From Jatrophihabitans telluris (GTDB lineage Bacteria > Actinomycetota > Actinomycetes > Mycobacteriales > Jatrophihabitantaceae): a stretch of DNA of 64,000 nucleotides. A program made the translations under genes and the position numbers. Below, piece after piece: positions 23,457 through 59,830 of this stretch. The stretch spans positions 992,001-1,056,000 of the forward strand of contig NZ_CP097332.1 in assembly GCF_023516435.1 (NCBI RefSeq), given 5' to 3'. The stretch's first letter is position 1. Every line of letters begins with the position of its first letter. The notes beneath the pieces were generated by a model. That model saw only the letters and a program-made list of their open reading frames with translations, was not told where the DNA came from and did not search any database.

Positions 23457-25121
23457 ATGTCCACGGGTGGCTTCATCGCCGCTGGTGGGGAGGTCGGCGA
23501 AGTGCCCGGTGCCACACTGGGCCTCGCCGAATCCTCGCCGTCAGCCGCATCAACGCAGACTCACACACCAGCACGTCCTACACAGCAGCGCCACCACGTC
23601 CGAGTTGGACGCCGCGCTCGCACCGGCGTCAACCGCAATGCCGAGATCGTCGCCGACATTCGGCGTTTCGAGCCCACGCCTCGACCGCCCAAGCGTCATG
23701 CCCAGTGGTTCAGCCAGTATCAGCGGGCCCTGGTCGTGCTCGACTTCCTCGCCGCGTCGTTGGCGGTATCGCTGTCGTTCCTGTTCCGCTTCGGTGCGGA
23801 CGCGACGACGGCCAACGGACGTTTCTACAGTGCGCTGGCCGCCCTCACGCCACTGGCGTGGGTATTACTCGTCGCTGTCAACCGCGCCTATGAGGACCGC
23901 TTCGTCGGTGTCGGCTCCGCCGAGTTCTCACGGGTCTTCCAAGCGTTCCTGCATCTGACCGCGCTCATCGCGTTCACCTCCTTCGTCACCAAGGCCGACC
24001 TGGCCCGCGGTTTCGTGCTGATCGCGCTCCCACTGGCCCTGATCTTCGACCTGCTGGTTCGCTACGGCGCCCGTAAGTGGCTGCACCGGCAGCGCGCCCG
24101 GGGGATGGCCCTGACTTCGGTGCTCGTGGTCGGCGATGCCGCCGCGATCGAGTCCTTCACGACGATGGTGCGACGGGACCAGTACGCGGGCCTACGCGTC
24201 GTCGGCGCCTGCGTGCCCGACGAAGTGGTCATGGAACTCGGCACCGTGGAGACGCTGGCCGCCCTCGAGGTGCCACTGCTCGGCGACGTGGACTCCGTTC
24301 GCTCGGCCGTACAGCGCAGCAAGGCCGACACGGTGGCCGTCGTTTCCTCCGGGGTGGTGGGTCCGGAGAAGCTTCGTTGGATTTCCTGGCAGCTCGAGGG
24401 CACCGCGACCGACCTGGTCGTCTCGCCGGGCCTCACCGAGGTGGCGGGCCCGCGCCTGCACATCCGGCCCGTTGCGGGCCTGCCGCTGTTGCACGTCGAG
24501 GAACCGGAGTTCACCGGTTTCCGGCGGGTCATGAAGGGCATGTTCGATCGCAGCGTCGCCGCCGTGGCCCTGCTGCTGCTGTCGCCGCTGTTCATCGCGC
24601 TGGCGATCTCGGTCCGCCGCAACAGTCGTGGACCGGCCCTCTTCCGCCAGGTGCGCGTCGGCCGTGAGGGTTCGACGTTCGAGATGATCAAGTTCCGTTC
24701 GATGTACGTCGACGCCGAGGAGCGCCTGGCCGACCTGGTCGGGCAGAGCGATCACGGTGAGGGCGTGCTGTTCAAGATGAAGGACGACCCTCGGGTGACC
24801 TCGGTGGGACGGTTCCTGCGCAAGTACTCCCTCGATGAACTACCTCAGCTCATCAACGTCCTCAACGGCACCATGTCGCTCGTCGGCCCCCGCCCTCCAC
24901 TGCCCCGGGAGGTCGCCCGCTACGAGGACCACGTCCACCGTCGCCTGCTGGTCAAGCCCGGGGTGACGGGCCTGTGGCAGGTCAGCGGTCGAAGTGACTT
25001 GAGCTGGGAGGAGTCCGTAAGGTTGGATCTGCGTTATGTGGAGAACTGGTCATTGAGCGAGGATCTGATGATCCTGTGGAAGACCGCTCGAGCAGTGACG
25101 GCCGGTTCAGGCGCTTACTAG
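23457..25121 (+). CDS. Exopolysaccharide polyprenyl glycosylphosphotransferase (WcaJ/CpsE family)
   Basis: A 554-residue membrane enzyme expected to start repeat-unit assembly by moving a sugar 1-phosphate onto undecaprenyl phosphate. ATG 23457 is used; residues 1-80 are a soluble low-complexity N-terminus. Four or so membrane segments follow (about 95-210), then a Rossmann-like CoA-binding-type domain, and the catalytic bacterial sugar transferase domain from about 360: FDRSVAAVALLLLSPLFIALAI, FRQVRVGREG, EMIKFRSM, KYSLDELPQLINVL and GPRPPLPREV. It heads a three-gene unit with the two genes after it. Donor sugar (glucose, galactose or other) cannot be told from sequence. Confidence 0.9.
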   Translation: MSTGGFIAAGGEVGEVPGATLGLAESSPSAASTQTHTPARPTQQRHHVRVGRRARTGVNRNAEIVADIRRFEPTPRPPKRHAQWFSQYQRALVVLDFLAASLAVSLSFLFRFGADATTANGRFYSALAALTPLAWVLLVAVNRAYEDRFVGVGSAEFSRVFQAFLHLTALIAFTSFVTKADLARGFVLIALPLALIFDLLVRYGARKWLHRQRARGMALTSVLVVGDAAAIESFTTMVRRDQYAGLRVVGACVPDEVVMELGTVETLAALEVPLLGDVDSVRSAVQRSKADTVAVVSSGVVGPEKLRWISWQLEGTATDLVVSPGLTEVAGPRLHIRPVAGLPLLHVEEPEFTGFRRVMKGMFDRSVAAVALLLLSPLFIALAISVRRNSRGPALFRQVRVGREGSTFEMIKFRSMYVDAEERLADLVGQSDHGEGVLFKMKDDPRVTSVGRFLRKYSLDELPQLINVLNGTMSLVGPRPPLPREVARYEDHVHRRLLVKPGVTGLWQVSGRSDLSWEESVRLDLRYVENWSLSEDLMILWKTARAVTAGSGAY

Positions 25122-25209
25122 CGCGGGAGAGGCGGTTTTACGAAGCCGCTGATCCACCACGACGTTCCGGTTCAACGCCGCGGTCAGTCCGCGGGCACCA
25201 AGGGGCACG

Positions 25210-26355
25210 ATGTACATCTCAATGGTTGGTACCCGTGGGGTGCCTGCCCGTTATGGCGGATTCGAAACATGCGTGGAGGAGGTCGGCCGCCGGCTCGTAG
25301 CGCGGGGACACCAGGTACGGGTCTACTGCCGCGGTGAGGCCGAGGTCGGCCCGGAATACCTGGGCATGGAGTTGGTCCACCTCCCCGCGATGCGCAAGAA
25401 GTCGCTGGAGACGCTCAGTCACACGGGCCTGTCTGTGCGGCACCTCCTCGCGCACCGCACCGACGTGGCCCTGGTCTTCAACGCCGCGAACGCCCCGTTC
25501 CTGCCGCTGCTGCGAGCTCGCCGGATCCCCGTCGCCACCCACGTGGACGGCCTGGAGTGGAAGCGTGCCAAGTGGGGCGGCAACGGCCGGCGGTACTACC
25601 GGGGCGCGGAGGCGCTGTCGGTCCGGTGGTCTGACGCCTTGATCGCCGACGCGCAGGGCATCGCCGACTACTACACCCAGGAATTCGCCGCCCCGACGGA
25701 GCTCATCGCCTACGGGGCACCGCTCCTGACCGGTCTCGGTTCGGACCGCCTGGCCGAGCAGGGCCTTGTCGCCGGCGGGTACCACCTCGTGGTGGCCCGG
25801 TTCGAGCCGGAGAACCACGTGGCCGAGATCGTCGAGGGCTACGTCGCCAGTGCTGCTCGGCTCCCACTCGTGGTGGTCGGTTCGGCGCCCTACGCCGATG
25901 ACTACACAGCCCGGATCACCGGTCTGGCCGACGATCGCGTTCGTCTGCTGGGCGGCATCTGGGACCAGGAGCTGCTCGATCAGCTCTACGCCAACAGCTT
26001 GACCTACCTGCACGGGCACTCGGTCGGAGGGACGAACCCGTCCCTGCTGCGCGCCATCGGCGCCGGCGCCCCGACGATCGCTTTCGATGTCTCCTTCAAC
26101 CGGGAGGTCCTCGGCGAGGCCGGTCAGTTCTTCGCCGACCCCGCTGGTGTCGCGGTGGCTGTCGACCAGGCCGAGGCGGACCCAGCGGCGGCTGCGGTGC
26201 GCGGCAAGGCTCTGCAGGCTCGGGCAGCCGATTACGACTGGGACGATGTCGCGGCCCGTTACGAGCGGTTGTGCCAACGGCTGGCAGACCGGGAGTTCCC
26301 ACGTCGACGGCCCTCGGGACGTCGTCGGGACGAGACCGCCGGGGCCCTCCGATGA
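25210..26355 (+). CDS. GT4 glycosyltransferase with DUF1972-type N-terminus (rhamnosyltransferase-like)
   Basis: A 381-residue GT-B glycosyltransferase. The N-terminal VGTRGVPARYGGFETCVEEV and THVDGLEWKRAKWG stretches match DUF1972 proteins, often annotated as rhamnosyltransferases. The C-terminal half has the nucleotide-sugar site (VVARFEPENHV, then GHSVGGTNPSLLRAIGAG). It would add a sugar to the lipid-linked intermediate on the cytoplasmic face. ATG 25210 lies 88 bases after the initiating transferase, and its TGA overlaps the next gene's ATG (ATGA), indicating an operon. Confidence 0.87.
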   Translation: MYISMVGTRGVPARYGGFETCVEEVGRRLVARGHQVRVYCRGEAEVGPEYLGMELVHLPAMRKKSLETLSHTGLSVRHLLAHRTDVALVFNAANAPFLPLLRARRIPVATHVDGLEWKRAKWGGNGRRYYRGAEALSVRWSDALIADAQGIADYYTQEFAAPTELIAYGAPLLTGLGSDRLAEQGLVAGGYHLVVARFEPENHVAEIVEGYVASAARLPLVVVGSAPYADDYTARITGLADDRVRLLGGIWDQELLDQLYANSLTYLHGHSVGGTNPSLLRAIGAGAPTIAFDVSFNREVLGEAGQFFADPAGVAVAVDQAEADPAAAAVRGKALQARAADYDWDDVAARYERLCQRLADREFPRRRPSGRRRDETAGALR

Positions 26356-27294: not shown

Positions 27295-27316
27295 CGGGGG
27301 ATGATTCGGGGGAATC
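27295..27316 (+). promoter_or_regulatory. Double CGGGGG box (lipoprotein gene)
   Basis: Two copies, CGGGGGA at 27295-27301 and CGGGGGAATC at 27307-27316, precede GTG 27321. A TATAGG hexamer at 27248-27253 could be the -10 element. Confidence 0.5.
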
Positions 27317-27320
27317 AGTT

Positions 27321-28058
27321 GTGGGCAGTACTTCTACCCACGTTCACGGTCGTAAGCAGCACGGCCAGACGTTGACAGCAGGCGCCACTCGGCTCCGTCT
27401 GGTCTCAGGGACCGTTCTCGGCGCCCTGGTCCTGACCGGTGCCCTCTCAGCCTGCAGCGGTTCGCACAAGAATGCAGCCGGCTCGACCGGCGCAACCACC
27501 GCCGGTGCACAGAGCAGCAGCTCGACCGGCGCAACCACCGCCGGCGCATCCAGGACGGGCACGGCCTCGGCCAGCTCGTCCGCAAGCGCCACGGTGTCCA
27601 CCGCGCCCGGTACGAAGGTCACGTCGGGCTCGGTCAACCAGACCGTCCCCGCCAAGTCGCTGGAGACCAAGTCCGCGGTGAGCCTGTCCAGCCCGGCCAA
27701 CTTCGGCAATGGGGTCACGGCCAAGGTGTCGGAGGTCAAGACCATCACCGCCAAGGCCCAGGGGCCCGGTGAGGTCAGCGGTCCGGCCACCGAGTTCGTG
27801 CTCAGCATGACCAACGGCACCAACAAGACGCTGGATCTGAGCAGTGTCACCGTCACCGTGCTCGACAAGGCCGGTACGCCGTTCCAACAGATGATCGGCA
27901 GCCCGTCCAAGCCACTGTCCGGCCATGCGGCTGCGGGCGCTTCTGCTCGTGGCACCTATGTGTTCGCGCAGCCGGCTTCGTTCAAGAATCCGATCACCAT
28001 CTCTTTCAACTACTCCGTCGAAGCGCCTGTCGTGCTCTTCACGGGCAATGCTCAGTGA
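27321..28058 (+). CDS. Lipoprotein with DUF4352-like domain
   Basis: A 245-residue predicted lipoprotein from GTG 27321. A long basic N-region is followed by a hydrophobic stretch and the lipobox LSAC (cysteine near residue 45). A Ser/Thr/Ala linker contains a repeated TGATTAGA unit. The C-terminal 130 residues look like an extracellular Ig-like DUF4352 domain (EFVLSMTNGTNKTLDLSSVTVTV). It ends 14 bases before the start of the giant secreted protein, so it is probably co-expressed and could help its export or display. Function is otherwise unknown. Confidence 0.75.
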   Translation: MGSTSTHVHGRKQHGQTLTAGATRLRLVSGTVLGALVLTGALSACSGSHKNAAGSTGATTAGAQSSSSTGATTAGASRTGTASASSSASATVSTAPGTKVTSGSVNQTVPAKSLETKSAVSLSSPANFGNGVTAKVSEVKTITAKAQGPGEVSGPATEFVLSMTNGTNKTLDLSSVTVTVLDKAGTPFQQMIGSPSKPLSGHAAAGASARGTYVFAQPASFKNPITISFNYSVEAPVVLFTGNAQ

Positions 28059-28072: not shown

Positions 28073-31000
28073 ATGCGCATTGTCAATGTCAGGTCCAAGC
28101 GGGTGATCGCCATCGCGGCGGTGCTCGGCTTGGCTACGAGCACGGTCACCGCGCTGGCGATCAGCGCGGGTGCGGCCGGGGCGGCGGTGTCGCCGATCGC
28201 GGATCGCTCTGCTTCCACGGTCACGGCCGACGCGCTGCCCACCGCGCAGATCGACGGCGTCGTCTGGTCGCAGGCGGTCGTCGGTAACACCGTCTACGTC
28301 GGCGGCCAGTTCACCACCGCCCGGCCCTACGGCTCGGCGGCCGGGGTCAACACGGTCAGCCGCAGCAACCTGATGGCCTATGACCTCACTACCGGCGTCA
28401 TGACCTCGTGGAACCCGGGCACCAACGGTGTCGTGAAGTCGGTCAAGGCTTCCCCGGACGGCACCCGCGTCTACGTCGCCGGCAACTTCACCACCGCCGG
28501 TGGCGCCAACCGCTACCGCATCGCCGCCTTCGACACCGCGACCGGCAGTCTGGTGAGCAGCTTCGCACCGGTGCTCTCGACCCAGGCCAACGCGCTCGCG
28601 GTGACGAACTCCACCGTCTACGTCGGCGGCCTGTTCACCTCGGCGACCGGCGCGGTCCAGCGCAATCACGTGGCGGCCTTCAGCGCCGGCAACGGCGCGC
28701 TGCTGCCCTGGAACCCCAACGCCGACAGCAACATCAACGCGATGGTCATCTCGCCGGTCGGCAACAAGCTCATCATCGGCGGTTCCTTCCAGAACGTCGG
28801 AGGCCTGCCCGCCTACGGCCTGGCCGCCGTCGACGACACCACCGGTGCCCTGCAGGCCTGGAACGCCACGACCGCGTCCCCCAACCCGGTTCGTGACGCC
28901 GGCCCGCAGGCCGCCATCGAAAGCCTGACCACCGACGGCACCGCGATCTACGGAACCGGCTACGTCTTCGGTTCCGGCGGCAACCTCGAGGGCACGTTCT
29001 CGGCCGACCCGACGACCGGCAACCTCAACTGGATCGAGGACTGCCACGGCGACACCTACGACGCCTACGCCTTCGCCGGCACGGTCTACACCGTGAGCCA
29101 CGCGCACTACTGTGGCAACATCGGCGGCTTCCCGCAGAGCGACCCGTGGTCGGTCAACCAGAAGCACGCGCTGGCCTTCACCACGCAGGCGACCGGCACC
29201 ATCGGCAACGACCCGCTCGGCTACTACAACTTCGCCGGCTCACCGAGCCCGTCGCTGGTCAACTGGTTCCCGGACTTCTACACCGGCAGCTACACCGGTC
29301 AGGGCCAGGCCGCCTGGACCGTCACCGGTAATGACAAGTACGTAGTCATGGGTGGCGAGTTCCCCGGCGTCAACGGGGCGGCCCAGCAGGGTCTCGTCCG
29401 GTTCGCCGTCAAGTCGATCGCGCCGAACGCGCAGAAGCCCCGGGTCACCGGTGCCGCTTTCGTGCCGACGCTGACCTCGTTCTCCGCGGGCACCGTCCGG
29501 GTCACCTGGCAGTCCAACTGGGACCGTGACGACAAGACCCTCACGTACAAGGTCATCCGTGACAACAACACGGCCAACCCGGTCTACACGGTGACGGCGG
29601 ATTCGGAGTACTGGAACCGACCTAACCTCGGGTTCATCGACTCCGGTGTGACTCCCGGATCCACCCACACCTACCGGGTCTCGGCCACCGACGGCTCCAA
29701 CAACACGGTCACCGGCGACAACGTCTCGGTGACGGTGTCGACCGCCAACAGCAGCGCGACGGCCTACTCGGCCGACGTCAAGGCCGACGGTGCCCAGCAC
29801 TTCTGGCCGCTGAACGAGAGCGCCGGCACCTCGACCAGCTACGACTACATCGGCTTCGACGACCTGACCACCAACAGCGGCGTGACCCGTACCTCGGGCA
29901 GCCCTGTCACCGGTGACAGCGGCACGGCCTCCACCTTCGACGGCAACACGGGTCTGGCCGTCGACCCGGTGGCCGTGACCGGCCCCCAGACCTTCTCCAT
30001 CGAGGCCTGGTTCAACACGACCAGCAGCACCGGTGGAAAGATCGTGGGCTTCGGTAACGCCTCGTCCGGCTTGTCCAGCAGCTACGACCGTCACATCTTC
30101 ATGGACGGCAGCGGCAAGGTGTACTTCGGTGTCTACAACAACAACACCAGCACCGTGGCCAGCTCACCGGGCTTCAACGACGGCAAGTGGCACCACGTGG
30201 TGGGTACCTTCACGAACACGGGCCTGACCCTGTACCTGGACGGCAAGAAGATCGGCACCAACGGCGCCACCTTCGCCCAGGACTACAGCGGCTACTGGCG
30301 TATCGGTGGTGACAACTCCTGGGGCGGTGACCAGTACTACGACGGTCAGGTTGCAGACGTCTCCATCTACCCGACCGTGCTGACCAAGGCCCAGGTGCAG
30401 AAGCACTACGTCGACGCCGGCTACAGCCTGCCGGGCAGCACCTCGCCGTCGGACAAGTACGGCAAGGCCGTCTACAGCGACTCGCCCGACATCTACTACC
30501 GCATGGACGACGCGGCCGGCACCCCGGCTCAGGACGTTTCCGGCAACAACAACAACGGCACCTACTACGGCAACGAGACCTACGGCGTGACCAGCCCGGT
30601 CACCGGCGCCGGCGGCAAGGCCGTGACCTTCCCCGGCACCGACAGCAGCAACCTCGCCTCGGGCCTGATCTCGGACCCGAAGTCCTACACCGAGGAGCTG
30701 TGGTTCAAGACGACCACCACCAACGGTGGCAAGCTGATCGGCTTCGGCGCCTCGCCCACCGGTAACAGCGGTGGTTACGACCGCCACGTCTACATGGACG
30801 GGGACGGCCGACTGAACTTCGGTACCTGGACCGGCCAGACCAACATCGCCACCTCGGCGAACAACGGGTACAACGACGGCGCGTGGCACTACCTGGTCGC
30901 CACGCAGGGCAGCGACGGCATGAAGCTCTACGTCGACGACGTCCTGGTGGGCACCAACGGCCAGACCAACAACCAGGACTACGACGGCTACTGGCGCGTC

Positions 31001-43134: not shown

Positions 43135-43695
43135 TCAGCCAGACTCCTTGGCCGGCGCGGTCAACCGCACCACAACCTCGACCGCTTCCTGCACCTCGAG
43201 AATCCGGTCCCGGACGACCGACAGCGGGCGGTCGACCGGGTCGGCGATGTCGTCGGAGTCGGGGCCTCGGTCGACCCGGCCGCGTAGCGCCGCGACGGCC
43301 TGCACCCGGGCGGCCAGGTCGGCGGGCAGTGCCGCTACCGGAACGGCGCGGCCCAGGCGGGCGAACTCCCGCAGTGTGAACGCGCGCCGCAGTAGGCGGG
43401 GGTGCTCGGCGATGATCTGATCGCGGTGCTGGGTCTCGGCGGTGAGGATCAGGTCTGCGGACTGGGCGATCGCCGGGGTGAGCTGGCGCGCCACGTGGCC
43501 GGTGGCGGAGACGTGAAGCTCGGCCAGGACCGAGGCAGTCTCGGGCGCTATCGGATACCCCACCATCGCGCGCGTGCCGGCGCTGCTGACTCGGGGCGCT
43601 CGAGCGGATCCACTCGCGGCTTCCATCCGGGCGCGGAAGATCGCCTCGGCGGCGGCGGATCGGTGGATGTTGCCGGTGCAGACGAACAGGATCAA
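43135..43695 (-). CDS. Low-molecular-weight protein-tyrosine phosphatase
   Basis: A 186-residue phosphatase starting at TTG 43695. The P-loop CTGNIHRS (Cys6 nucleophile, Arg12) and the general-acid loop DIADPVDR (Asp152) are intact. In capsule systems such phosphatases dephosphorylate the BY-kinase autokinase and so cycle polymer length and export; the Wzz/BY-kinase gene lies 1.6 kb away. It is divergent from the polymerase gene across a 120-base region. Confidence 0.88.
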   Translation of the reverse strand: MILFVCTGNIHRSAAAEAIFRARMEAASGSARAPRVSSAGTRAMVGYPIAPETASVLAELHVSATGHVARQLTPAIAQSADLILTAETQHRDQIIAEHPRLLRRAFTLREFARLGRAVPVAALPADLAARVQAVAALRGRVDRGPDSDDIADPVDRPLSVVRDRILEVQEAVEVVVRLTAPAKESG

Positions 43696-45310: not shown

Positions 45311-45320
45311 TCTGGGGGCG
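45311..45320 (+). promoter_or_regulatory. GGGGG start-proximal box (Wzz/BY-kinase gene)
   Basis: TCTGGGGGCG lies 2 bases before GTG 45323; this copy has T in place of the first C of the box. Confidence 0.4.
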
Positions 45321-50377: not shown

Positions 50378-50384
50378 CGGGGGT
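50378..50384 (+). promoter_or_regulatory. CGGGGG start-proximal box (cytidylyltransferase gene)
   Basis: CGGGGGT lies 4 bases before GTG 50389, following the dyad at 50333-50347. Confidence 0.45.
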
Positions 50385-50388: not shown

Positions 50389-50871
50389 GTGACACAGCAC
50401 GATTCCAACCACGAGTTCGACGGCGGGCGCAAACGCGACGGGACTCTGAAGGTCGGGTACGCACCCGGCGTCTACGACATGTTCCATGTCGGGCATCTCA
50501 ACATCCTGCGCAACGGCCGGCTGGCCTGTGACTACCTCATCGCCGGGGTCGTGTCCGACGAGCTGGCCGAGCGGGTCAAGGGCAAGCGCCCGGTGGTCCC
50601 GTTGGTCGAGCGGCTGGAGATCGTCAGTCACGTCCGTTTCGTGGATGAGGCCGTGGCCGAGGACGTGCCGAGCAAGCTCGAGATGTGGGAACGCCTCAGA
50701 TTCGACGTCATCATCAAGGGTGACGACTGGCGAGGCACACCCAAGGGCGACAAGCTGGAGAAGGACTTCGCCGAGGTGGGCGTCGAGGTCTTCTATCTGC
50801 CCTACACGGTGCAGACCTCCTCGACGATGCTTCGCCAGGCGCTGCACCGTGAGATCGCCCGTTCCTCCTGA
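50389..50871 (+). CDS. TagD-like glycerol-3-phosphate/alcohol-phosphate cytidylyltransferase
   Basis: A 160-residue nucleotidyltransferase from GTG 50389. GVYDMFHVGHLNIL carries the HxGH motif (His33, His36). KGDDWRGTPKG matches the GDDWxG block of TagD and ethanolamine-phosphate cytidylyltransferases, and VQTSSTMLR stands where the family has its RTxxIST-type motif. Reaction: CTP plus an alcohol phosphate gives CDP-alcohol plus pyrophosphate. The product could be the donor for the CDP-alcohol phosphotransferase at 26352. The exact alcohol (glycerol or other) is not determined. It ends 12 bases from the convergent GDPD-like gene. Confidence 0.82.
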   Translation: MTQHDSNHEFDGGRKRDGTLKVGYAPGVYDMFHVGHLNILRNGRLACDYLIAGVVSDELAERVKGKRPVVPLVERLEIVSHVRFVDEAVAEDVPSKLEMWERLRFDVIIKGDDWRGTPKGDKLEKDFAEVGVEVFYLPYTVQTSSTMLRQALHREIARSS

Positions 50872-50883: not shown

Positions 50884-52410
50884 TCAACTCAGCGGGCTGA
50901 TGCGCAGGTTGCGGAACGAAGCCGAGGAATTGGGCTGGTAGTCCTCTCGGCCGATGTGGAGATACCCACCTCGAAAACGGGAGTCGGCCGCGCTCACGGT
51001 GTGCGTCGCGCCGTCCGAGCGCGTCCAGGTGATCTGGTCGGGGCGTACCTCGAGTCGGAACGACATCCACTCACCGGCCTGGACCGCGCTCGTCCACACA
51101 GGTGTCGCGAGCTGCGTCGGGGCGGGATTGCCGCCCTCGTGGCTGAACAGGCCGAGCAGCCCGTTGGCCTGGATGATCGCGGAGTACCCGTCGGTGTCGC
51201 CGAGTTGATACTCGTAGTAGCGATCGTCGGAATGGCCGAAAACGAGGGCCAGATGCTGGCTGAGGACGTCGGGCAACACGTTCCACCGCGCCTGCAGGTC
51301 GACGCGGTACCCGCCCGAGCTCTGGGCCAGCGGTGCGAGCTGGCCCAGGCAGAGGAAGTGCTGGTTGTCGGGCACCGCAAGCGTGAGGGTCCCGTCGCTG
51401 GCCCAGTCCGGCGCCCACTTGGGCACCGCCGGTCCACGGGTGAGTTCGCCCGACTCGATCGCCCGTCCCGCCCAGCCGACCTGCGAGGCGAGCGCTCCCT
51501 GCGTCGAGACGTAGTGGTAACTCGAGGTCACCACGCCGTGAACGCCCAGATCGAAGAAGTACGCCGCCTCCGAACGCCGATGCACCGGGTAGACCCACAC
51601 CGGGACCTTCGTGGCCACGGCGGTCCGAACCAGGTCCGCGCTGAGGGGCCCGGACTGCTGCTGGCTGGTCGTCGGGATGACCAGGACGTCGCGGTCCGGA
51701 TCCAGGCCGCGGGCGACCTTGCCGATGAGGGCGGCCGAGACATCGCTGTCGGCGAGGTAGCTGAAGATTCCGTAGCCGGCCTTCTTGGCCTTGGCGATCA
51801 CGCCGGAGGTGTGAAAGGCCTTGACCATGACCGAGTCCTGAAGCCCGTGGGCCTTGACCATCGCCATCATGGCGGGATAGTCGGCGTCGCGCTTGGCCTC
51901 GACGAGCAGGATCGCCTTGTTCCCATAGCGTTTGAGCACCTCGGAGAAGAGCGGAACCGCAGGCAACGGCTCCGCCAGCCAGCGGGCTCCGAGCTGAGGT
52001 TGGCGGATGCCGATCCTGGACAGCACGGACGACGGCTGATCGTGGATCTGGCCGGTCCAGTTCGTCGTCCGGTCGTAGGTCAGGTCATGCATGCAGACGA
52101 GCACGCCGTCGGAGGTGGAGCTGGTGCTGATCTCCATCGCCGGCGCTCCCCAGGCGATCGCCGCGTCGTAGGCCGGGTAGGAGTGTTCGGGTAGGACGTC
52201 GCCGGAGCCGCGGTGAGCGATGAAGTAGCGCTCGCCACGGGTGGACTGCCAGTGACGCACCCGTGCGCCCAAGCTCGGCAACGGTGGGCTGGTGTGCTCG
52301 CCCTCCCAGATCGCTCCGGCCAGCAGACCTCCGCCGATCGCAGCCGCCCCGCCGGCCAGCAGCGTGCGACGTGAGATCGCGCGGCGGTTCGGTTCGACGG
52401 GCGTGGGCAT
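50884..52410 (-). CDS. Tat-exported GDPD-like protein with C-terminal lectin-like domain
   Basis: A 508-residue protein from ATG 52410. A twin-arginine signal (RRTLLAGGAAAIGGGLL, residues 14-30) indicates folded export. Residues about 60-315 form a glycerophosphodiester phosphodiesterase TIM barrel: AHRGSG (His66), the PEHSYPAY glutamate, VCMHDL (His108) and LLVEAKRD. The metal-binding ExD motif reads EIS (Glu93-Ser95), so one aspartate ligand is missing. Residues about 335-508 look like a LamG/DUF1080-type glycan-binding fold. It may bind or trim glycerol-phosphate-like groups at the surface, or be a non-catalytic relative. Confidence 0.82.
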   Translation of the reverse strand: MPTPVEPNRRAISRRTLLAGGAAAIGGGLLAGAIWEGEHTSPPLPSLGARVRHWQSTRGERYFIAHRGSGDVLPEHSYPAYDAAIAWGAPAMEISTSSTSDGVLVCMHDLTYDRTTNWTGQIHDQPSSVLSRIGIRQPQLGARWLAEPLPAVPLFSEVLKRYGNKAILLVEAKRDADYPAMMAMVKAHGLQDSVMVKAFHTSGVIAKAKKAGYGIFSYLADSDVSAALIGKVARGLDPDRDVLVIPTTSQQQSGPLSADLVRTAVATKVPVWVYPVHRRSEAAYFFDLGVHGVVTSSYHYVSTQGALASQVGWAGRAIESGELTRGPAVPKWAPDWASDGTLTLAVPDNQHFLCLGQLAPLAQSSGGYRVDLQARWNVLPDVLSQHLALVFGHSDDRYYEYQLGDTDGYSAIIQANGLLGLFSHEGGNPAPTQLATPVWTSAVQAGEWMSFRLEVRPDQITWTRSDGATHTVSAADSRFRGGYLHIGREDYQPNSSASFRNLRISPLS

Positions 52411-52648: not shown

Positions 52649-52656
52649 CGGGGGGG
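52649..52656 (+). promoter_or_regulatory. CGGGGG start-proximal box (small propeller gene)
   Basis: CGGGGGGG lies 2 bases before GTG 52659. Upstream, 52411-52648 shows no gene; it holds the divergent promoters of the GDPD-like and propeller genes. Confidence 0.45.
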
Positions 52657-52658: not shown

Positions 52659-53846
52659 GTGAAAAGTCGATATCTGCTTGCCGGTTTAGTCGCAACCGTA
52701 CCGGTGTTGATGCTCGCCGGTGCGCCGCCGGCGTTGGCCGCGGGGACCGTGCCGCCCACCACCGCTATCCAGCCCGCGATCCCCTTCGACCAGACGAACG
52801 GCGACATCCTCGCCGTCACCAAGGTCGTCGGCTCCGCCGTCCCGCTCATCGCCTTCGGCGGCAACTTCACCGCCGTGATCACACCTGACGGCCTCAGTCA
52901 TGCCGCCACCAACTTCGCCGTAGTCGACGAGACCACCGGGACGGTCGTCTATGCCGGGAACGCGAACTCCTACGTCCGGACGATCTCCAGCTATGCGGGC
53001 GTCATCTACGTCGGCGGCGATTTCACGACGTTCGGGGGACTGGTGCGTAACCGGTTGGCTGCCCTGGGCACCACGTTCAGCGTGACTTCGTGGGCGCCGA
53101 GTTCGTCGGTGGAGATCTCAGCGGTCACGGCGACCTCTCGAGGCGTGTACTACGGCGGTGCAAGCGCCGGCATCCACCTGGCCAACTTCGCCACCGGCGC
53201 CGACATCTGGCAGCGGTACATCTCCGGCGGTCCGTGCAAGGTGATCTCCGAGTCGCCCGACGGAGCCTCGGTCTACATCGGCGGCCTGTTCGAGACCTAC
53301 AACGGCCTGGCCCGGCATGGTCTGGCCAAGGCGAGCGCGGTCACGGGAGTGGTCGACCCCGCCTTCAACGCCAACTTCCGGGTCGACTCGGGAGTCGGAG
53401 TGCACGCCAGCTTCGACGGCGAGGAGGCCATCTCGCTGGCTTGGGACGGCGGCACCAAGCTGGTCGTCGGGGTGGGCGGTTACGGCGCGGACGAGATCCG
53501 CCAGCTCAATCCGCTGACCGGGGTGTCGAACTGGATGAAGTTCACGCCCGGCGACGTGCAGGGGACCGCGGTCGTGGGGGACACCTACATCGCCGGGTAC
53601 CACCGGAATCAGGCCAACGCCAGCATTCCGTACCCGAACTTCGGGGCCCAGGTGGAAGCCACCAACGGCCAGCTCACCAGCTGGGACCCGCTGCTGACGG
53701 GCAACCAGGCCAATGCCGACCACGGCAACAACGGAATCCAGGCTGTCTACGCCGACCCGGTCGCGAAGAAGCTCTTCATCGCCGGCGCGTTTCTCAAGTA
53801 CGGGACGGTCAGTCGGCAGTCGTTGATCGTCTTCCCCTACAGCTGA
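52659..53846 (+). CDS. Secreted beta-propeller-like protein
   Basis: A 395-residue exported protein from GTG 52659, with a clean signal peptide ending near APPALA. The rest is repeats of about 45-60 residues with VGGDFT/IGGLFE cores and RLAAL or GLAKAS..TG spacers, the same repeat type as the propellers in the proteins at 28073 and 57260. VYIGGLFETYNGLARHGLAK and VVDPAFNANF resemble delta-60 repeats. It lacks the FN3, PKD and DxFxR parts and the cysteine-bearing insertion of its relatives. It may be a stand-alone version that binds the same partner. Function unknown. Confidence 0.78.
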   Translation: MKSRYLLAGLVATVPVLMLAGAPPALAAGTVPPTTAIQPAIPFDQTNGDILAVTKVVGSAVPLIAFGGNFTAVITPDGLSHAATNFAVVDETTGTVVYAGNANSYVRTISSYAGVIYVGGDFTTFGGLVRNRLAALGTTFSVTSWAPSSSVEISAVTATSRGVYYGGASAGIHLANFATGADIWQRYISGGPCKVISESPDGASVYIGGLFETYNGLARHGLAKASAVTGVVDPAFNANFRVDSGVGVHASFDGEEAISLAWDGGTKLVVGVGGYGADEIRQLNPLTGVSNWMKFTPGDVQGTAVVGDTYIAGYHRNQANASIPYPNFGAQVEATNGQLTSWDPLLTGNQANADHGNNGIQAVYADPVAKKLFIAGAFLKYGTVSRQSLIVFPYS

Positions 53847-53890: not shown

Positions 53891-55690
53891 TCAGCAGACC
53901 GGCGACTGGACGGCGACGGGAAGCGAAAGCACACCGGGTTGGCGAAGGATCTGTACCGGGCCGCGTCCGGGGTCGCCGCTGGTGACCACCGTGACCGTGG
54001 TCGTGGTGGCCCGTCGGAGTTCGACGGTCACGGTGAACACCGACAGGCCGTGTTCGCGTTGCGGAATCACCTGCAACTGTTGGCCGTTCACCACGACCGA
54101 CACGATCCGGCTTCCGTTGGTGTAGTAGTAGTTGACCAGCAGCTTGTTGTCGCCGGGCTTGGTCGGATAGGGCGGCTTGTCGGCCCGGACGGTGACGTAG
54201 GCGGGCAGGCCTGATGCGGGGGCGTCATTGGTCAGCGTGAGCGTGGCGGTCGACGTGCCGTTGCTCGCGCAGGAGCTGCGCTGGTAGCGCATCGCCCGGC
54301 GCAGGTAGTAGTCGAGCTTCCCGCCGGCCGCGTTCACCGTCGTGAAGCCGGAGAACGGACGGCTGCCCGGCTCCAGCGTTCCGGAAAGACTCGTCTGGCG
54401 CAGAATGTTCTCGTCCCGGCTGTCCTTGGCCCAGACCAGCAGCCGGCCCTCACCCGAGGCGCGTCCGGCCGCGTGCACCAGCGCGGCCGACCCCGGTGCG
54501 CCCAGCAACCGGTCGGAGATGGCGCTGCTGATGTCGAGCAGGTAGTTCTTGCGCGCAGTCGTCTTGGGATAACGGGTGTAGAGCTGCTGCTGGGTCAGGG
54601 CAACGACGTTGTCGGCACTGACGTCGGACTTGTCCGGCAGGGTCGCCGGGCCGGTGACCTTGAGCAGGTAGGAGATGGCGGTCGGGTCGATGGCGACGGC
54701 ACCGTCGATCTCCTGGCCGCTGTATTTGCGCCACATGGCTGCCCAGATCTGCGCGGCGTCCCGGAAGTCCGGACTGATCGTGCTGTTCGGGTAGGTGTCC
54801 CAGGGCGCGGATCCGCTGTAGCGCGCTGTGTATTCAGGTCCGAGATCGAGACCGGTCTTGACGTTGTAGAGCACCGTGTCGCTCTCGAAGCGGGTGAAGC
54901 TCAGCTTGCCGTTCTCGGCCGTGGCGATGGCGAACGCGCCGGGAATGCCCCCCAGGCCTCGGCTTTCGGCCTCGTTCTCCAAGCCGACGAAGTACCGTTT
55001 ACGGCCCTCGGACCCGAGCATGTCGGGCAGGATCGAAGCCGCGCGGTTGAGTCCCGCGACCTGGGCACCCAGCGCCGCCAGGCTGTCGCCGTAGTGGTTG
55101 CGCGCCCGGTCCACCGCTGCCAGCCAGGTGTGGTGCGGCAGCGCGTTGACCTGCCGGGTGGTCGAGGTCATCGCCTCATCGGCCCGGTTGAGCACGGGGG
55201 CCACCCCAATGATCGGTTTGAGGTCGATCTGGCCTCGGTTGATGAGGTTGTTGAGGACCAGACCATTGGCCGAGCTGCTCAGCGGGGCCAGCACATCGCG
55301 GCCGACGGTGTCGGCGGAGGCGGTACAGCCGCGGACCGAGGCGATGGGCCGTCCGAGCCAGGGGATGTGCGCCGCGACCCACCACGCGGGCCCGGTGCTC
55401 AGTTGGTGTGCTCGGTGGGCGCGTTGAGCGACGATCCTGGCCGAGGCGGTCGCGCCGGCCACATCGCCTTGGGCGACCTGGCTACGCGTTTTCGTGGCCA
55501 CGCGCTGCGCGTCGTCGAGTTGGTGCTTGGCCATGATGCCGGTGACCACCAACCAGACACCGCCCAGGACGAGCAGGGTCAGGACCGGGGCCCACAGCCA
55601 TGGCGAAGCGAGGCTACGGATTCCCCGTAGCCTCGCCCCTCGTTGCTCAGCCGTGCCGACGACGGCCCTGCACCACGATGATCGAGCCAC
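53891..55690 (-). CDS. DUF4012 domain-containing membrane-anchored protein
   Basis: A 599-residue protein with one N-terminal membrane segment (about 31-50) and a large extracytoplasmic DUF4012 region; SRGLGGIPGAFAI and DGAVAIDPTAISYLLKVTGP are typical of the family. DUF4012 proteins are found near capsule and wall-glycan genes in Gram-positive bacteria; their activity is not known to me. Two other cysteines are seen near CASNG and the C-terminal SPVC. The start at GTG 55690 overlaps the end of the upstream LAYTG gene by 44 bases and places a hairpin (55608-55636) in the coding start, so the true start is uncertain. Confidence 0.8.
   Translation of the reverse strand: MARSSWCRAVVGTAEQRGARLRGIRSLASPWLWAPVLTLLVLGGVWLVVTGIMAKHQLDDAQRVATKTRSQVAQGDVAGATASARIVAQRAHRAHQLSTGPAWWVAAHIPWLGRPIASVRGCTASADTVGRDVLAPLSSSANGLVLNNLINRGQIDLKPIIGVAPVLNRADEAMTSTTRQVNALPHHTWLAAVDRARNHYGDSLAALGAQVAGLNRAASILPDMLGSEGRKRYFVGLENEAESRGLGGIPGAFAIATAENGKLSFTRFESDTVLYNVKTGLDLGPEYTARYSGSAPWDTYPNSTISPDFRDAAQIWAAMWRKYSGQEIDGAVAIDPTAISYLLKVTGPATLPDKSDVSADNVVALTQQQLYTRYPKTTARKNYLLDISSAISDRLLGAPGSAALVHAAGRASGEGRLLVWAKDSRDENILRQTSLSGTLEPGSRPFSGFTTVNAAGGKLDYYLRRAMRYQRSSCASNGTSTATLTLTNDAPASGLPAYVTVRADKPPYPTKPGDNKLLVNYYYTNGSRIVSVVVNGQQLQVIPQREHGLSVFTVTVELRRATTTTVTVVTSGDPGRGPVQILRQPGVLSLPVAVQSPVC
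55608..55636 (-). terminator. 12-bp hairpin between the LAYTG gene and the DUF4012 gene
   Basis: GCGAGGCTACGG (55608-55619) and CCGTAGCCTCGC (55625-55636) form a perfect 12-bp stem with a 5-base loop, just beyond the LAYTG gene stop on the minus strand. It may terminate or attenuate transcription into the DUF4012 gene. Confidence 0.5.
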
Positions 55691-56075
55691 CGACGACCAT
55701 GAGCGCGCCCAAGCCGGCGACGACGGTTACCTGGGTGCCCGTATAGGCGAGGCCGCTGTTGGAACTCTTCAGCGGCGTACTGGTCGACGCGGCGGCCGAA
55801 GCGGAGTCCGACGCGATGCCTGAAGCCGGAGCCGACGACGTGGTGGCATCGACAACCGTGTCAGTCGAGCAGGCAGCCGGAGCGGTGCTCGCGGCGACCG
55901 ACGTGCCGGGCACGACGCTCGCGGCGCAGCTGTCGCTGGGCGGGTACGCGGTGGTGGCGAGTGCGGTCCCGGCCAGCGGTCCGAGCACGAGGGCGAGCGC
56001 GCCGCCCGCGACGGCACTGGCCAGGACGGTCTTTCGGCGACGCGATGGGCGCGGCGCGGACAAGTGAGTGATCAT
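55647..56075 (-). CDS. Small wall-anchored protein with LAYTG sorting signal
   Basis: A 142-residue protein from ATG 56075. A signal peptide (about 1-40, ending ALA) is followed by YPPSDSCAAS, a Ser/Ala/Thr-rich stretch with two cysteines, and a C-terminal sorting signal: LAYTG, a hydrophobic segment (VVAGLGALMVVGGSIIVV) and a basic RRR tail. LAxTG is the motif recognised by class E sortases of high-GC Gram-positives. No sortase gene is visible in the window. A CGGGGGGA box precedes the start. Its partner, with the same YPPxxSC opening, is the next gene upstream. Confidence 0.82.
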   Translation of the reverse strand: MITHLSAPRPSRRRKTVLASAVAGGALALVLGPLAGTALATTAYPPSDSCAASVVPGTSVAASTAPAACSTDTVVDATTSSAPASGIASDSASAAASTSTPLKSSNSGLAYTGTQVTVVAGLGALMVVGGSIIVVQGRRRHG

Positions 56076-56377
56076 TGTTTCCCCCCGAAGTTCTGCACGC
56101 TCACCGTAACTCAATACACGCGGAACTCACAAGTGCTTCGCCCTTGTTTGTTTCATGAATTCACATCTTGCTACTCTCCGGGTTGGTGCGAATACGGAAA
56201 GTACGCAAGGGTCATCGATAATGACGAATATCACCATCTGTAGTTATTCAACTACACCCCGTGACAGAAGGTATACATCGAATTCTTCCGCCGGTCGAGC
56301 CTGCGGGTGACAACGCGGCTCGGGAATTCTGCCGCAGACGTTTGATCGAGGTGCTGACTGCGCGGCCGCAGCAGCCG
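56076..56377. other. 302-base AT-rich intergenic region with a dyad
   Basis: No gene is seen. It includes the box CGGGGGGA on the minus strand at 56080-56087 (4 bases before ATG 56075), and an inverted repeat TGTAGTT-ATTC-AACTACA at 56239-56256, a good candidate operator for the LAYTG gene. It also includes a stretch near 56200-56280 that is clearly richer in A+T than the genes. Confidence 0.5.
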
Positions 56378-56992
56378 TCAGGGTCCGGCCCGACGCCCTG
56401 AGCGGATCGCGAACGCGCACAGAGCGACGGCTGCCGCAGCCACCAGACCGATGATCGCGAGCAGCGTCGGCGTCGACAGGCCTCGGCTCTGGCCGATTGC
56501 GACGCCGAGCGGCGTGGGAGGTGGCGGCGGTTCCACGATGGAGGAGGGGCTGGCCGTCACCGACCCCGACGGCGCGGGAGACGGCGATGGTGATGGCTGG
56601 CCACCGGTCAGCAGCGCGCTGCAGGCGGTGCTGCGGTCAGCCGCGCGGATCACGGTCACGGGCGCGGATATGGCCTCACGCAACTGGAAAGTCCCGCTGA
56701 CGTCAGCGTGAACGATGCCGATCGTGCGAAGCTCCGCGGTCACGGTGACCACGGCATCGGAGCCGAATCCGGTCCCCGTGATCTGCGCGCTGGCGCCGGA
56801 GTTGCCGATCCAGCTCGCGGCCAGCGCGCACGATTCGCGCGGCGGATAGGCCGGCGCGGCGCTGGCCGGAGCGCCCGTCGAGGTAGCCAGCACAGCGAAG
56901 AGCGCCACCGCGCCGAGCGTCGCCGAACGACGTCGCGTACGCCCGAACGCGCCGCGGACGTCTACGTCCGGCGGCGTGGAAAAGCTGTGCAT
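56378..56992 (-). CDS. Exported protein with C-terminal membrane anchor (YPPxxSC family)
   Basis: A 204-residue protein from ATG 56992. The signal region is residues 1-46. The mature part starts AYPPRESCALAAS, shares YPPxxSC with the LAYTG protein downstream, and has a second cysteine (STACSALL) that could pair with the first; the region resembles a small Ig-like fold. A Pro/Ser linker leads to a C-terminal membrane segment (LLAIIGLVAAAAVALCAFAI) and a basic end RSGRRAGP. No sorting motif is present, so it is probably membrane-anchored. A CGGGGGA box precedes the start. Function unknown. Confidence 0.75.
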   Translation of the reverse strand: MHSFSTPPDVDVRGAFGRTRRRSATLGAVALFAVLATSTGAPASAAPAYPPRESCALAASWIGNSGASAQITGTGFGSDAVVTVTAELRTIGIVHADVSGTFQLREAISAPVTVIRAADRSTACSALLTGGQPSPSPSPAPSGSVTASPSSIVEPPPPPTPLGVAIGQSRGLSTPTLLAIIGLVAAAAVALCAFAIRSGRRAGP

Positions 56993-57259
56993 CGAATCCC
57001 CCGATTTCTACATCGGAGGGTAAACGACGAAATGATTTTCTGACAACCGCTTGACATTGGACTGCGCCGCGCGTGATTGCCGTCACGGCCCGTTGGGCGA
57101 TTTGACGGTGTTGCGCAGCTGTCGACGGAGATTGTCGTTGTGTTTCTGAGACATTCCTCCGGCACCGGTATCAATTCGTGCCTCCACGGCTCTTTACCCC
57201 GCGCTTATGTCGGTTACGATGTGTGGGATCAGTAAAGCTCGGGATAGCGGGGGCAACCT
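56993..57259. promoter_or_regulatory. Divergent promoter region with Crp/GlxR-like site
   Basis: This 267-base gap separates the minus-strand YPPxxSC gene from the plus-strand propeller-PKD gene. It has CGGGGG boxes at both ends (minus strand 56997-57003; plus strand 57248-57254), a TTGACA at 57051-57056, and CGTGA-N6-TCACG at 57072-57087. That last site has the spacing of Crp/GlxR operators (TGTGA-N6-TCACA). Confidence 0.5.
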
Positions 57260-59830
57260 ATGAGCACAGTTTCACGTTATTCGGCGACGGCGGCACGCCG
57301 GCCGCGGCGAGGCTTGGTGGCCCTGGTCGCCGCCGCCTTGACCGTCGGCGTGCTGAGCGTGGCCACCACGGCACCGGCGGTGGCCGACACCCTCCCGCCC
57401 AACGGCACGCCCGCCACCGTCAGCGATGACAGCCTTCCGGTCTGGCAGATCAACGGCGTCGTCTGGGCCCAGGTCGTCGTCGGCAACACCGTCTACGCCA
57501 CGGGCAGCTTCACCTCGGCTCGACCGCCCGGCTCGACCGCGGGTAACAACGAGGTCGCTCGATCCAACCTGCTCGCCTACGACATCACCACCGGCAACCT
57601 GATCACGTCCTTCAATCACGCCCTCAACGCTCAGGGCCTGGCCATCGCGGCCTCGCCGGACGGCACCCGGCTCTACGTAGGTGGCGACTTCACCACCGTC
57701 GACGGCGTCTCGCACAGCCGGCTCGCCGCGTTCGACCTGAGCACCGGCGGCCTGGTCAACTCGTTCGCTCCATTGATGGGCACGACCGTGCGTGCCGTCG
57801 CAGCCACGAACACCACCGTCTATGCCGGCGGTGACTTCAGCGCCGTGGGCGGCGTCGCCCGGGCCAAGATCGCCGCCGTCGACACGAGCGGCGCGTTGAC
57901 CACGTGGAATCCCGGTGCCGGAGCTCCGGTGACGGCCCTGGCGATGTCCCCCGATGGCACCAAGCTCATCGTCGGCGGTCGCTTCACCACCCTGGCCGGG
58001 GTGTCGCGCTACGGCCTCGGCGCGGTGTCGGCCGCGACCGGTCTGGCCACCAACTGGGTGGCCAACCCGGTGGTGCGCGACGCCGGCAACAACTCGTCCA
58101 TCACCTCGCTGAACTCCGACGGCACGAACATCTACGGCAGTGGTTACGTGTTCGGCTCGGGGGGCAACGTCGAGGGCACCTTTGCCATCAAGGACGACGG
58201 CAGCCTGGTCTGGCTCAACGACTGCCACGGTGACACCTACAGCGCCTACCCGATCGGTTCGGTCGTCTACTCGGTGGCGCACTCGCACTTCTGCGGCAAC
58301 ATGGGGGCCTTCCCCGAGACCAACCCGCGCAGCTACCACCACGCGCTGGCCTCGACGACCTACGCCACGGGAACGCTGTCGCGCAACACGATCAACGGCT
58401 ACACCAACTTCCAGGGGCAGCCCGACAGCACCCAGCTCGACTGGTACCCGGACCTGTCCACCGGCAGCTACACCGGTCAGGGCCAGGCGGCCTGGTCGGT
58501 GACGGGCAACGCCCAGTACGTCGTGCTCGCCGGCGAGTTCCCGATCGTCAACGGCAAGGCCCAGCAGGGACTGGCCCGTTTCGCGGTCGCAAACCTGGCC
58601 ACGAACAAGCTCGGCCCGACCGCGTCCGCCAAGATCACGCCGACTGCCAGCATGCAGAACAGCACCTCGATCAAACTGACTTGGGGCACGACCTGGGACC
58701 CGGACAACGGCGCGTTGACCTACAAGGTCTACCGCGACGGCAGCACGATCGCGCTCAACTCGCGCACCGTGGACACCCGCTTCTGGACCGCGCCGAACCC
58801 GACCCAGGCCTTCACCGACACCAACGTGCCCAACGGCTCGCACACCTATGTGATCAAGGTCAGCGACGGCTGGGGCAACACGATCGCCAGCGCTGCCTCC
58901 AACGTCGTCACGATCGCCGGTTCGAACAACGCCCCGACGGCGTCGTTCACCAACGCCTGCACGGCGCTCGACTGCACCTTCGACGGATCGGCCTCATCCG
59001 ACAGTGATGGCTCGATCAGCTCCTACGCCTGGGACTTCGGCGACTCGACGACGGCCGCCGGTCCCACCCCGGCGCACAGCTACAGCGCCGCGGGCACGTA
59101 CACGGTGACGCTGACCGTCACCGACAACCTGGGTGCGACGGGGCAGCAGTCCACCGCGGTAACCGTCGTGCAGGGCAACCCGTTGCCCCCGGGCGCGTTC
59201 GCCTACGACACCTTCGACCGCACCGTTGCCTCCGGATGGGGCGGGGCGATCCTGGGCGGAGCCTGGTCGGGATCGACCGGTGCGCTGAGCGTGACTCCGG
59301 GAGCCGGCAACCTGACGCTCAACACCCCGGCAGGGTCGGCCTCCGCCTACCTCGCATCCACCGCCCACGCCGACAGCGTCGTGACGGCCGCCGTCTCGCT
59401 GAACCAGCTCGCGACCGGTGGCGGTTCCTACTTCGGCCTGCTGGCCCGTCGTCTGGACACCACGCACAACTACACCGGTCGGGTGCGGATCACCAGCGCC
59501 GGTGCCGTTCTGGTGTCACTGACCAAGTTGGACGGATCGTCGACCGCGGTCACGCTGGGAACGGAAAAGGGCGTCGCCGGTCTCACGTACACCCCGGGCA
59601 GCAAGCTCGATCTGCAGCTGGCGGTCACGACCTCCGGCGGGCTCAACCACCTGAGCGTCACCGCCTGGGCCGACGGCACGCCCCAGCCGGCCGCGCAACT
59701 GAGCTTCGACGACACCAGCACCGCGCTGCAGGCCGCCGGCGCTGTCGGTGCCTGGGGTTACCTGTCGGGTAGCTCGACCGTCACCGGCATCGTGAACTCC
59801 GTGTCGGCGTTCCAGGCCGTCGCTCCGTAG
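57260..59830 (+). CDS. Secreted beta-propeller, FN3, PKD and DxFxR-domain protein
   Basis: An 856-residue exported protein from ATG 57260, paralogous to the giant protein at 28073. After the signal peptide (about 1-43) the propeller (50-440) matches it repeat for repeat, including the CHGDTY ... HSHFCGN insertion and the GSYTGQGQAAW block. FN3 (about 445-555), one PKD domain (557-640) and one DxFxR domain (648-856, YDTFDRTVASGWGG) follow. It lacks the LamG domains and six PKD copies of the longer protein. No anchor is visible. The likely role is surface or matrix adhesion. Confidence 0.83.
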   Translation: MSTVSRYSATAARRPRRGLVALVAAALTVGVLSVATTAPAVADTLPPNGTPATVSDDSLPVWQINGVVWAQVVVGNTVYATGSFTSARPPGSTAGNNEVARSNLLAYDITTGNLITSFNHALNAQGLAIAASPDGTRLYVGGDFTTVDGVSHSRLAAFDLSTGGLVNSFAPLMGTTVRAVAATNTTVYAGGDFSAVGGVARAKIAAVDTSGALTTWNPGAGAPVTALAMSPDGTKLIVGGRFTTLAGVSRYGLGAVSAATGLATNWVANPVVRDAGNNSSITSLNSDGTNIYGSGYVFGSGGNVEGTFAIKDDGSLVWLNDCHGDTYSAYPIGSVVYSVAHSHFCGNMGAFPETNPRSYHHALASTTYATGTLSRNTINGYTNFQGQPDSTQLDWYPDLSTGSYTGQGQAAWSVTGNAQYVVLAGEFPIVNGKAQQGLARFAVANLATNKLGPTASAKITPTASMQNSTSIKLTWGTTWDPDNGALTYKVYRDGSTIALNSRTVDTRFWTAPNPTQAFTDTNVPNGSHTYVIKVSDGWGNTIASAASNVVTIAGSNNAPTASFTNACTALDCTFDGSASSDSDGSISSYAWDFGDSTTAAGPTPAHSYSAAGTYTVTLTVTDNLGATGQQSTAVTVVQGNPLPPGAFAYDTFDRTVASGWGGAILGGAWSGSTGALSVTPGAGNLTLNTPAGSASAYLASTAHADSVVTAAVSLNQLATGGGSYFGLLARRLDTTHNYTGRVRITSAGAVLVSLTKLDGSSTAVTLGTEKGVAGLTYTPGSKLDLQLAVTTSGGLNHLSVTAWADGTPQPAAQLSFDDTSTALQAAGAVGAWGYLSGSSTVTGIVNSVSAFQAVAP

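Follow-up and report, generated by a model that had tools for sequence, protein, structure and literature searches.

A recurrent actinobacterial polysaccharide locus with propeller-family exported proteins, a candidate extracellular-matrix locus carrying a G-rich box at gene starts in Jatrophihabitans telluris

The roles of the priming, transferase, flippase, polymerase and kinase/phosphatase families of polysaccharide loci are established, and in Vibrio the rbm and vps genes are clustered. According to the parts of PMC10102183 consulted, the beta-propeller of the Vibrio proteins Bap1 and RbmC binds Vibrio polysaccharide (VPS). In Bifidobacterium longum 105-A, a priming transferase, DUF4012, wzz and glycosyltransferases are found together in the cps region (sections of PMC5412050). 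Here we describe a stretch of 64,000 nucleotides from J. telluris (assembly GCF_023516435.1, contig NZ_CP097332.1, positions 992,001 to 1,056,000; hereafter the window), in which positions 23457..59830 form an island of polysaccharide genes and genes for exported proteins. We propose, with a probability of about 0.72, that this island is a recurrent actinobacterial extracellular-matrix locus, in which a Wzx/Wzy-type decorated polysaccharide is accompanied by propeller-family proteins that most likely bind and link it. The island resembles the V. cholerae VPS/Bap1/RbmC system (PMC10102183, in part) in that its genes predict a polysaccharide combined with secreted multi-domain beta-propeller proteins. 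It differs in its PKD, LamG and jelly-roll-like modules and in its lipoprotein companion. It shares the combination of genes named above with the B. longum cps region, but the terms "PKD" and "surface protein" are absent from the main text of PMC5412050 in the form consulted. The locus is a variant of a known polysaccharide/matrix arrangement, and its most novel part is a G-rich box before gene starts. The 23 genes of the island, some with starts placed by eye or by hand, are as follows.

23457..25121, + strand: initiating sugar transferase (SugT), PF02397 E 5.7e-68
25210..26355, + strand: DUF1972/GT4 glycosyltransferase, used in the linkage test, PF09314 E 4e-19 and PF13579
26352..27125, + strand: CDP-alcohol phosphotransferase, PF01066 E 1.5e-11, start chosen by eye
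27321..28058, + strand: lipoprotein, the propeller companion, without Pfam match, start chosen by eye
28073..34213, + strand: 2046-residue exported protein with propeller, two LamG, seven PKD and jelly-roll-like modules
34403..36568, + strand: GT2-GT4 fusion glycosyltransferase (Pfam scan)
36565..37563, + strand: GT2 glycosyltransferase, PF00535 E 9.6e-13
37560..38636, + strand: polysaccharide pyruvyltransferase, PF04230 E 8.5e-24
38615..40090, + strand: Wzx-type flippase, PF13440 E 5.5e-74
40087..41331, + strand: FrhB/FdhB-like protein, PF04432 E 2.6e-29
41279..42412, - strand: weak GT4-like glycosyltransferase, PF00534 E 0.0043, below cut-off
42560..43129, + strand: hexapeptide acyltransferase, PF00132 E 5e-13, start uncertain
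43135..43695, - strand: low-molecular-weight protein-tyrosine phosphatase, PF01451 E 6.8e-23
43816..45270, + strand: weak Wzy-like polymerase/ligase, PF04932 E 6.6e-5
45323..47203, + strand: Wzz/BY-kinase co-polymerase, GNVR E 3.1e-7, AAA_31 E 1.7e-7, Wzz E 0.0017
47602..50220, + strand: 872-residue exported beta-helix protein with a jelly-roll-like module, no box, PF13229 E 4.4e-15
50389..50871, + strand: TagD/RfaE-like (CTP-transferase-like) nucleotidyltransferase, PF01467 E 4.1e-14, TIGR02199 and TIGR01518 below cut-off
50884..52410, - strand: glycerophosphodiester phosphodiesterase with a C-terminal extension, PF03009 E 5.7e-18
52659..53846, + strand: 395-residue exported propeller protein, PF17164 weak, 38% match to the 856-residue protein
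53891..55690, - strand: DUF4012 protein, PF13196 E 1.8e-37
55647..56075, - strand: small LAYTG protein, read from sequence
56378..56992, - strand: YPPxxSC exported protein (gene call)
57260..59830, + strand: 856-residue exported propeller-PKD-jelly-roll-like protein (Pfam scan)

The components by which a Wzx/Wzy-type locus is recognised, an initiating transferase, a flippase and a co-polymerase, are all present in the Pfam scans. The Wzy assignment is weak because the PF04932 value falls below the Pfam cut-off. No Rfam family matched positions 23000-60200 at E up to 1. The original prediction, made earlier on this DNA, had named the initiating transferase, flippase, polymerase, co-polymerase kinase and phosphatase, and Pfam places all of them where it did, the polymerase weakly. 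It had claimed five glycosyltransferase genes; we count four, of which one is a GT2-GT4 fusion and one (41279-42412) is weak. The exported proteins of 2046, 872, 856 and 395 residues that it listed, together with the lipoprotein and the DUF4012, LAYTG and YPPxxSC proteins, are all present. Its description of the large proteins as a propeller/PKD/LamG set is correct, as regards the propeller, for the 2046-, 856- and 395-residue proteins but not for the 872-residue protein, which matches beta-helix families. The domain sharing that it reported is also seen, as propeller, PKD and jelly-roll-like modules and as DNA repeats between the genes of the exported proteins. It had not mentioned the FrhB-like, hexapeptide acyltransferase, CTP-transferase-like, glycerophosphodiester phosphodiesterase, CDP-alcohol phosphotransferase and pyruvyltransferase genes.

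Relatives of the 856-residue protein were collected by a scan of genome contigs. At least 564 stretches encode one; the best 80 were taken, which gave 78 actinobacterial loci, and a query was counted as matched in a locus when its tblastn score exceeded 60 bits. Of twelve polysaccharide-type queries from the island, 71 of the 78 loci matched at least one and 53 matched at least three, these being counts of queries, so that two related queries may match the same gene. When the same 21 queries were compared with 36 twenty-kb stretches spread across the J. telluris genome, none of the stretches had a polysaccharide-query match. The most frequent partners were the GT2-GT4 fusion (54 loci), the DUF1972 transferase (47) and the CDP-alcohol transferase (40), followed by the lipoprotein (36), Wzz (33), the beta-helix protein (30), the TagD-like protein (28), GT2 (27), SugT (24), the minus-strand transferase (16) and the flippase (15). 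The Wzy and DUF4012 queries had no match above 60 bits in any of the 78 loci. Linkage was then counted in 61 genomes (J. telluris and 60 relatives), with E up to 1e-30 for the propeller and up to 1e-60 for the DUF1972 transferase. The propeller was found in 25 genomes, the transferase in 15 and both in 14. Thus, 14 of 15 genomes with the transferase have the propeller, vs 11 of 46 without it (Fisher P 2.3e-6). In the fifteenth genome, G004, the transferase sits at a contig end. The two genes share a contig in 12 genomes, always at a distance of 0.6-4.8 kb, and lie on separate contigs in G020 and G030.

In both the 2046- and the 856-residue protein, the propeller is N-terminal and is accompanied by PKD repeats and by a C-terminal module, which by our own reading of the sequence appears jelly-roll-like. 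The 872-residue protein shares with them only a similar module near its N-terminus. An 84-nt PKD repeat family is present at the DNA level in seven copies in the 2046-residue gene and one copy in the 856-residue gene. Propeller DNA repeats of 33-195 nt are shared by the same two genes, and short ones are found also in the 395-residue gene. The N-termini of the propeller proteins are hydrophobic. In an alignment of 70 modules (A1), D8, F10, R12, G19, G24 and G25 are invariant; in one of 56 propellers (A2), Cys280, His299, His301 and Cys303 are among the invariant residues. At E values up to 0.1, the module profile matched no PDB entry. The sole match of the propeller profile among PDB sequences was 8pjs, which we take to be a designed propeller, and no sequence relation of the island propeller to Bap1/RbmC was found in the profile and PDB sequence searches made. 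The companion lipoprotein family is present in 50 of the 78 loci, and one of its members immediately precedes 31 of 95 propeller open reading frames, vs 17 of 730 other genes. A simple pattern finds a lipobox in only 9 of 53 members of the family; therefore, many companions may be anchored otherwise.

Nine of the 23 island genes have a run of five or more G whose end lies 2-8 nt ahead of the start, as follows.

23448..23452, + strand: G5 box before SugT
27303..27316, + strand: perfect GATTCGGGGGAATC box before the lipoprotein, the sole perfect copy in the J. telluris genome
28062..28066, + strand: G5 box before the 2046-residue gene
45314..45318, + strand: G5 box before Wzz/BY-kinase
50379..50383, + strand: G5 box before the TagD-like gene
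52650..52656, + strand: G7 run before the 395-residue gene
56081..56086, - strand: G6 run before the LAYTG gene
56998..57002, - strand: G5 box before the YPPxxSC gene
57249..57253, + strand: G5 box before the 856-residue gene

Ahead of SugT, four G5/G6 runs are spaced about 40 nt apart (23324, 23368, 23407 and 23448). As background, a gene caller was run on the window and 40 stretches of the J. telluris genome (702 genes), and any candidate start was allowed in scoring. GGGGG was in place in 26 of 620 background genes (CCCCC in 9) and in 5 of 21 island genes of the caller; four hand-placed genes are not among the caller's boxed set. All seven propeller/PKD genes counted in J. telluris carry the box, including the four in the unlinked loci L146-L149; a further PKD match, a weak one at 859,800, stands outside this count. 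The unlinked gene in L149 (6813-10583, - strand) encodes a 1256-residue phosphoesterase with six PKD repeats and has the boxed start catcgggggatgaaATG. Across the 78 loci, the box was found on 44 of the 145 genes that belong to the propeller, SugT and TagD-like families vs 78 of 772 others (P 2.2e-9), and CCCCC in the same position on 4 of 145 vs 27 of 772. The enrichment was highest in nine Blastococcus loci, where 20 of 25 such genes and 10 of 87 others were boxed (P 1.4e-10; CCCCC 1 of 25). We also tried the short form as a specific marker and rejected it. The pattern CGGGGGAN{2,7}ATG is found at 37 places in the J. telluris genome vs 8 for the reversed control; by eye, many of the 33 places outside the island and L149 are not gene starts and a few precede exported proteins.

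The sharp form of the box is GATTCGGGGGAATC, of which the 61 genomes contain 69 copies with at most one mismatch, vs 5 for the reversed pattern. Twelve copies are perfect, and 11 of these precede island-type families, named by eye or by matching in the stretches of ten relatives. They stand before the companion lipoprotein in G000, G007, G013 and G005, before two propeller genes, both in G005 (one box lies 41-44 nt upstream of the start, L298), before the DUF1972 transferase in G013 and G016, and before the YPPxxSC protein in G002, G003 and G008. The remaining one, in G059, precedes an HNH-like gene. The 11 copies before island-type families all carry their G-run on the sense strand. Among 24 examined of the 57 one-mismatch copies, two precede YPPxxSC genes (G004 and G006); in J. 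telluris, one precedes the L148 propeller and one is upstream of SugT. Most of the other examined copies have no start with an open reading frame within 20 nt. In G021 (L286), a one-mismatch box lies ahead of a 499-residue exported protease-like protein.

Pairing of the arms that flank the G-run was compared with shuffled sequences, in a test designed after the motif had been noticed. The 13 J. telluris boxes gave 37 pairs vs 23.8 (P printed as 0.0000 of 20,000 shuffles), and, once the two sites behind the idea for the test were removed, 28 vs 18.9 (P 0.003); shifted registers gave P 0.06, 0.9 and 0.1. At 68 other sites there was no excess of total pairing (111 vs 119), while stems of at least four pairs numbered 8 vs 2.3 (P 0.001). 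In 24 background boxes no excess was found (46 vs 47.7). A hairpin in every box is therefore not upheld, since the excess is seen in the 13 boxes of J. telluris and is equivocal in the wider set. These sequences suggest a small hairpin at the box but do not establish it.

Housekeeping genes flank the island on both sides: ksgA, prs, glmU, ispE, rplY, pth, alkA and ppc (PEP carboxylase) on the left (window 3430-23116) and mfd on the right (59879-63547). We examined ten of the 14 relatives having the DUF1972 gene, around that gene, leaving out G004, G020, G030 and G053. In eight of the ten (stretches within L248-L263), such genes lie beside the island. G007, G013 and G021 have rplY-pth-ogt-ppc, and G013 also mfd. 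G059 has ksgA-ispE-glmU-prs-rplY-pth on one side and mfd on the other. In G025 and G040, ppc and then DUF4012, mfd, glmU and prs are on the same side; G052 has ppc and G026 has prs-glmU. None of these genes was seen in the approximately 6 kb covered in each of G015 and G016. Because the layouts of the eight relatives differ, the arrangement varies while the neighbourhood recurs. In the 78 loci, pth or mfd is within the stretch in ten, seven of which are Blastococcus.

Several results weigh against an extracellular-matrix locus whose parts share a box. The propeller paralogues L146-L148 of the same genome have no island polysaccharide match in their 19-kb stretches, and seven of the 78 loci, some on short contigs, have no polysaccharide-query match. 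The loci come from the 80 best among at least 564 relatives of the query, which is not a random sample, and the control stretches were drawn from the J. telluris genome only. Without Blastococcus the enrichment of the box is modest (24 of 120 vs 68 of 685, P 0.003). Fourteen of the 23 island genes, the 872-residue gene included, have no box. In the ten relatives, boxes precede 3 of 12 propeller genes, 3 of 8 SugT genes and 0 of 3 TagD-like genes vs 7 of 77 unmatched genes (they also precede 2 of 10 DUF1972, 1 of 4 companion and 1 of 2 Wzz genes). In the stretches examined, G025 has no box and G040 only a doubtful one, and the only two boxes of G026, counted within the 7 of 77, precede prs- and glmU-like genes. 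It is improbable that the exported proteins act as enzymes or in nutrient binding and simply happen to lie near polysaccharide genes. The invariant Cys280, His299, His301 and Cys303 of the propeller would suit an enzyme, and one boxed relative (L149) is a PKD phosphoesterase; however, no enzyme family was matched for the propeller proteins, and their tight linkage to polysaccharide genes recurs. The original prediction saw one system here and asked whether propeller and polysaccharide genes occur together. Polysaccharide queries match in 71 of 78 propeller loci vs 0 of 36 control stretches, and the DUF1972 transferase and the propeller co-occur in the 61 genomes (Fisher P 2.3e-6), so the two groups are not independent, while L146-L148 and the seven loci without a partner do not follow. 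The start-proximal boxes that it noticed are present at nine of 23 starts, and in other genomes they are found before genes of the same families. Its statement that no such system had been described must be qualified by the functional parallel in V. cholerae. It holds for the actinobacterial protein set, of which no account with polysaccharide clusters was found among the literature matches listed, a search that mostly did not cover subscription papers.

Four explanations of the box were compared. It is rather doubtful that the box is only a Shine-Dalgarno variant, in which GGGGG pairs with CCUCC of 16S rRNA (one G-U) and which was inherited through paralogue duplication. The propeller genes are paralogues, and 68 of 81 boxed sites have the end of their first five G 4-8 nt ahead of the start, though these sites were selected by position. 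However, the box is common to non-homologous genes across lineages (SugT, TagD-like, lipoprotein, YPPxxSC and DUF1972 transferase) and rare in the background (26 of 620), one perfect box lies 41-44 nt ahead of a propeller start, and the GATTC/GAATC flanks are retained in perfect copies within the family of J. telluris. The same inverted-repeat arms, retained in 12 perfect copies, would fit a palindromic operator, GATTC-N4-GAATC, for a DNA-binding regulator. We regard such an operator as unlikely, because 11 of 11 island-family copies carry it with the G-run on the sense strand, CCCCC in place is rare (4 of 145 vs 44 of 145 for GGGGG) and the arms of two long stems contain G-U pairs. CsrA, which would then repress matrix genes and tie them to motility, is a less probable reader. 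By precedent, RsmA controls psl via a hairpin at the psl leader (PMC7652899, in part). CsrA (PF02599) is found in J. telluris (E 8.2e-24), in all eight same-genus genomes and in 25 of 61 overall; G007, G013 and G059 have both CsrA and boxes, and in G025, G026, G040 and G052, which lack a CsrA match, boxes are few or doubtful. CsrA sites need GGA in the loop, according to the sections of PMC7652899 consulted. GGGGGA is present in only 7 of 13 J. telluris boxes and the loop differs, so that GGA in the loop does not hold at each site; therefore, CsrA is a candidate and not a match. G016 and G021, both incomplete genomes, are boxed without a CsrA match, and G015 has CsrA but no box within the 6 kb examined. 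The csrA gene, at L296:8774-11861 (- strand), adjoins fliW-, flgL- and flgK-like genes named by eye, with a flagellin-like open reading frame about 9 kb away.

A C-rich small RNA of the 6C/B11 type is the least probable reader and would be surprising. As far as the parts of PMC12395582 consulted describe it, the mycobacterial 6C/B11 RNA pairs with G-tracts adjoining the ribosome sites of surface-lipid genes; in Mycobacterium marinum, the C-rich loop of B11 pairs with those of lipooligosaccharide genes. Loss of B11 gives rough M. abscessus (PMC10470900, in part). The G-tracts of the island resemble those B11 targets in lying near the ribosome site (PMC12395582, same parts), but the island has a sharper 14-nt box before other gene families, and 6C was not found. 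The best match of RF01066 in the J. telluris genome has E 5.8, below cut-off, and 23 family members gave none at E 0.001 with stricter filters. By eye, no 6C was seen in the gap beside the HAD gene, which holds 6C in relatives such as G030, in J. telluris (L166:1419-1515), eight family members and four Blastococcus sequences (L195, L197, L200 and L206). In this survey a motif served to place 15 of 23 stretches, which were then examined by eye, and did not place L193, L196, L198, L202, L207, L210, L211 and L214. A 6C-like hairpin pair was visible only in L194 (G030), a genome that the 6C search also matches. In 49 genomes, reached via 50 of the 78 loci, boxes are not positively associated with 6C (4 of 17 genomes with it, 16 of 32 without, P 0.13). 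A pattern for C-loop terminators gave 25 matches (19 forward and 6 reverse) vs 10 and 10 in the control, and no convincing one was present among the 19 forward matches, which were folded. As a tentative proposal, to which we give somewhat less than an even chance, the box defines a hitherto undescribed RNA-level regulon, in which a G-loop element at matrix gene starts, GATTC-GGGG-GAATC or, in Blastococcus, a shorter G5 form, would coordinate SugT priming with the propeller proteins, the lipoprotein partner and the YPPxxSC surface proteins. In our main reading, we infer that the box places SugT priming and the matrix proteins under a common control, probably at the RNA level.

If the island is an extracellular-matrix locus, SugT would prime the polymer and the glycosyltransferases would extend it. 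Pyruvate and acyl groups would decorate the polymer, which would then be flipped and polymerised, and the kinase and phosphatase would control its length. By analogy with the binding of VPS by the Bap1/RbmC propeller, the propeller proteins most likely bind the polymer and may provide adhesion, as links between the polymer and the cell or other surfaces; the small, presumably anchored companion is often encoded just upstream. The PKD modules may be spacers, and the LamG and jelly-roll-like modules further binding parts. If this is true, many Actinobacteria would have a defined candidate for a matrix locus that can be recognised from its genes and their neighbours. It would come with named candidates for the matrix proteins and with an exact cis-element through which the control of matrix production could be probed.

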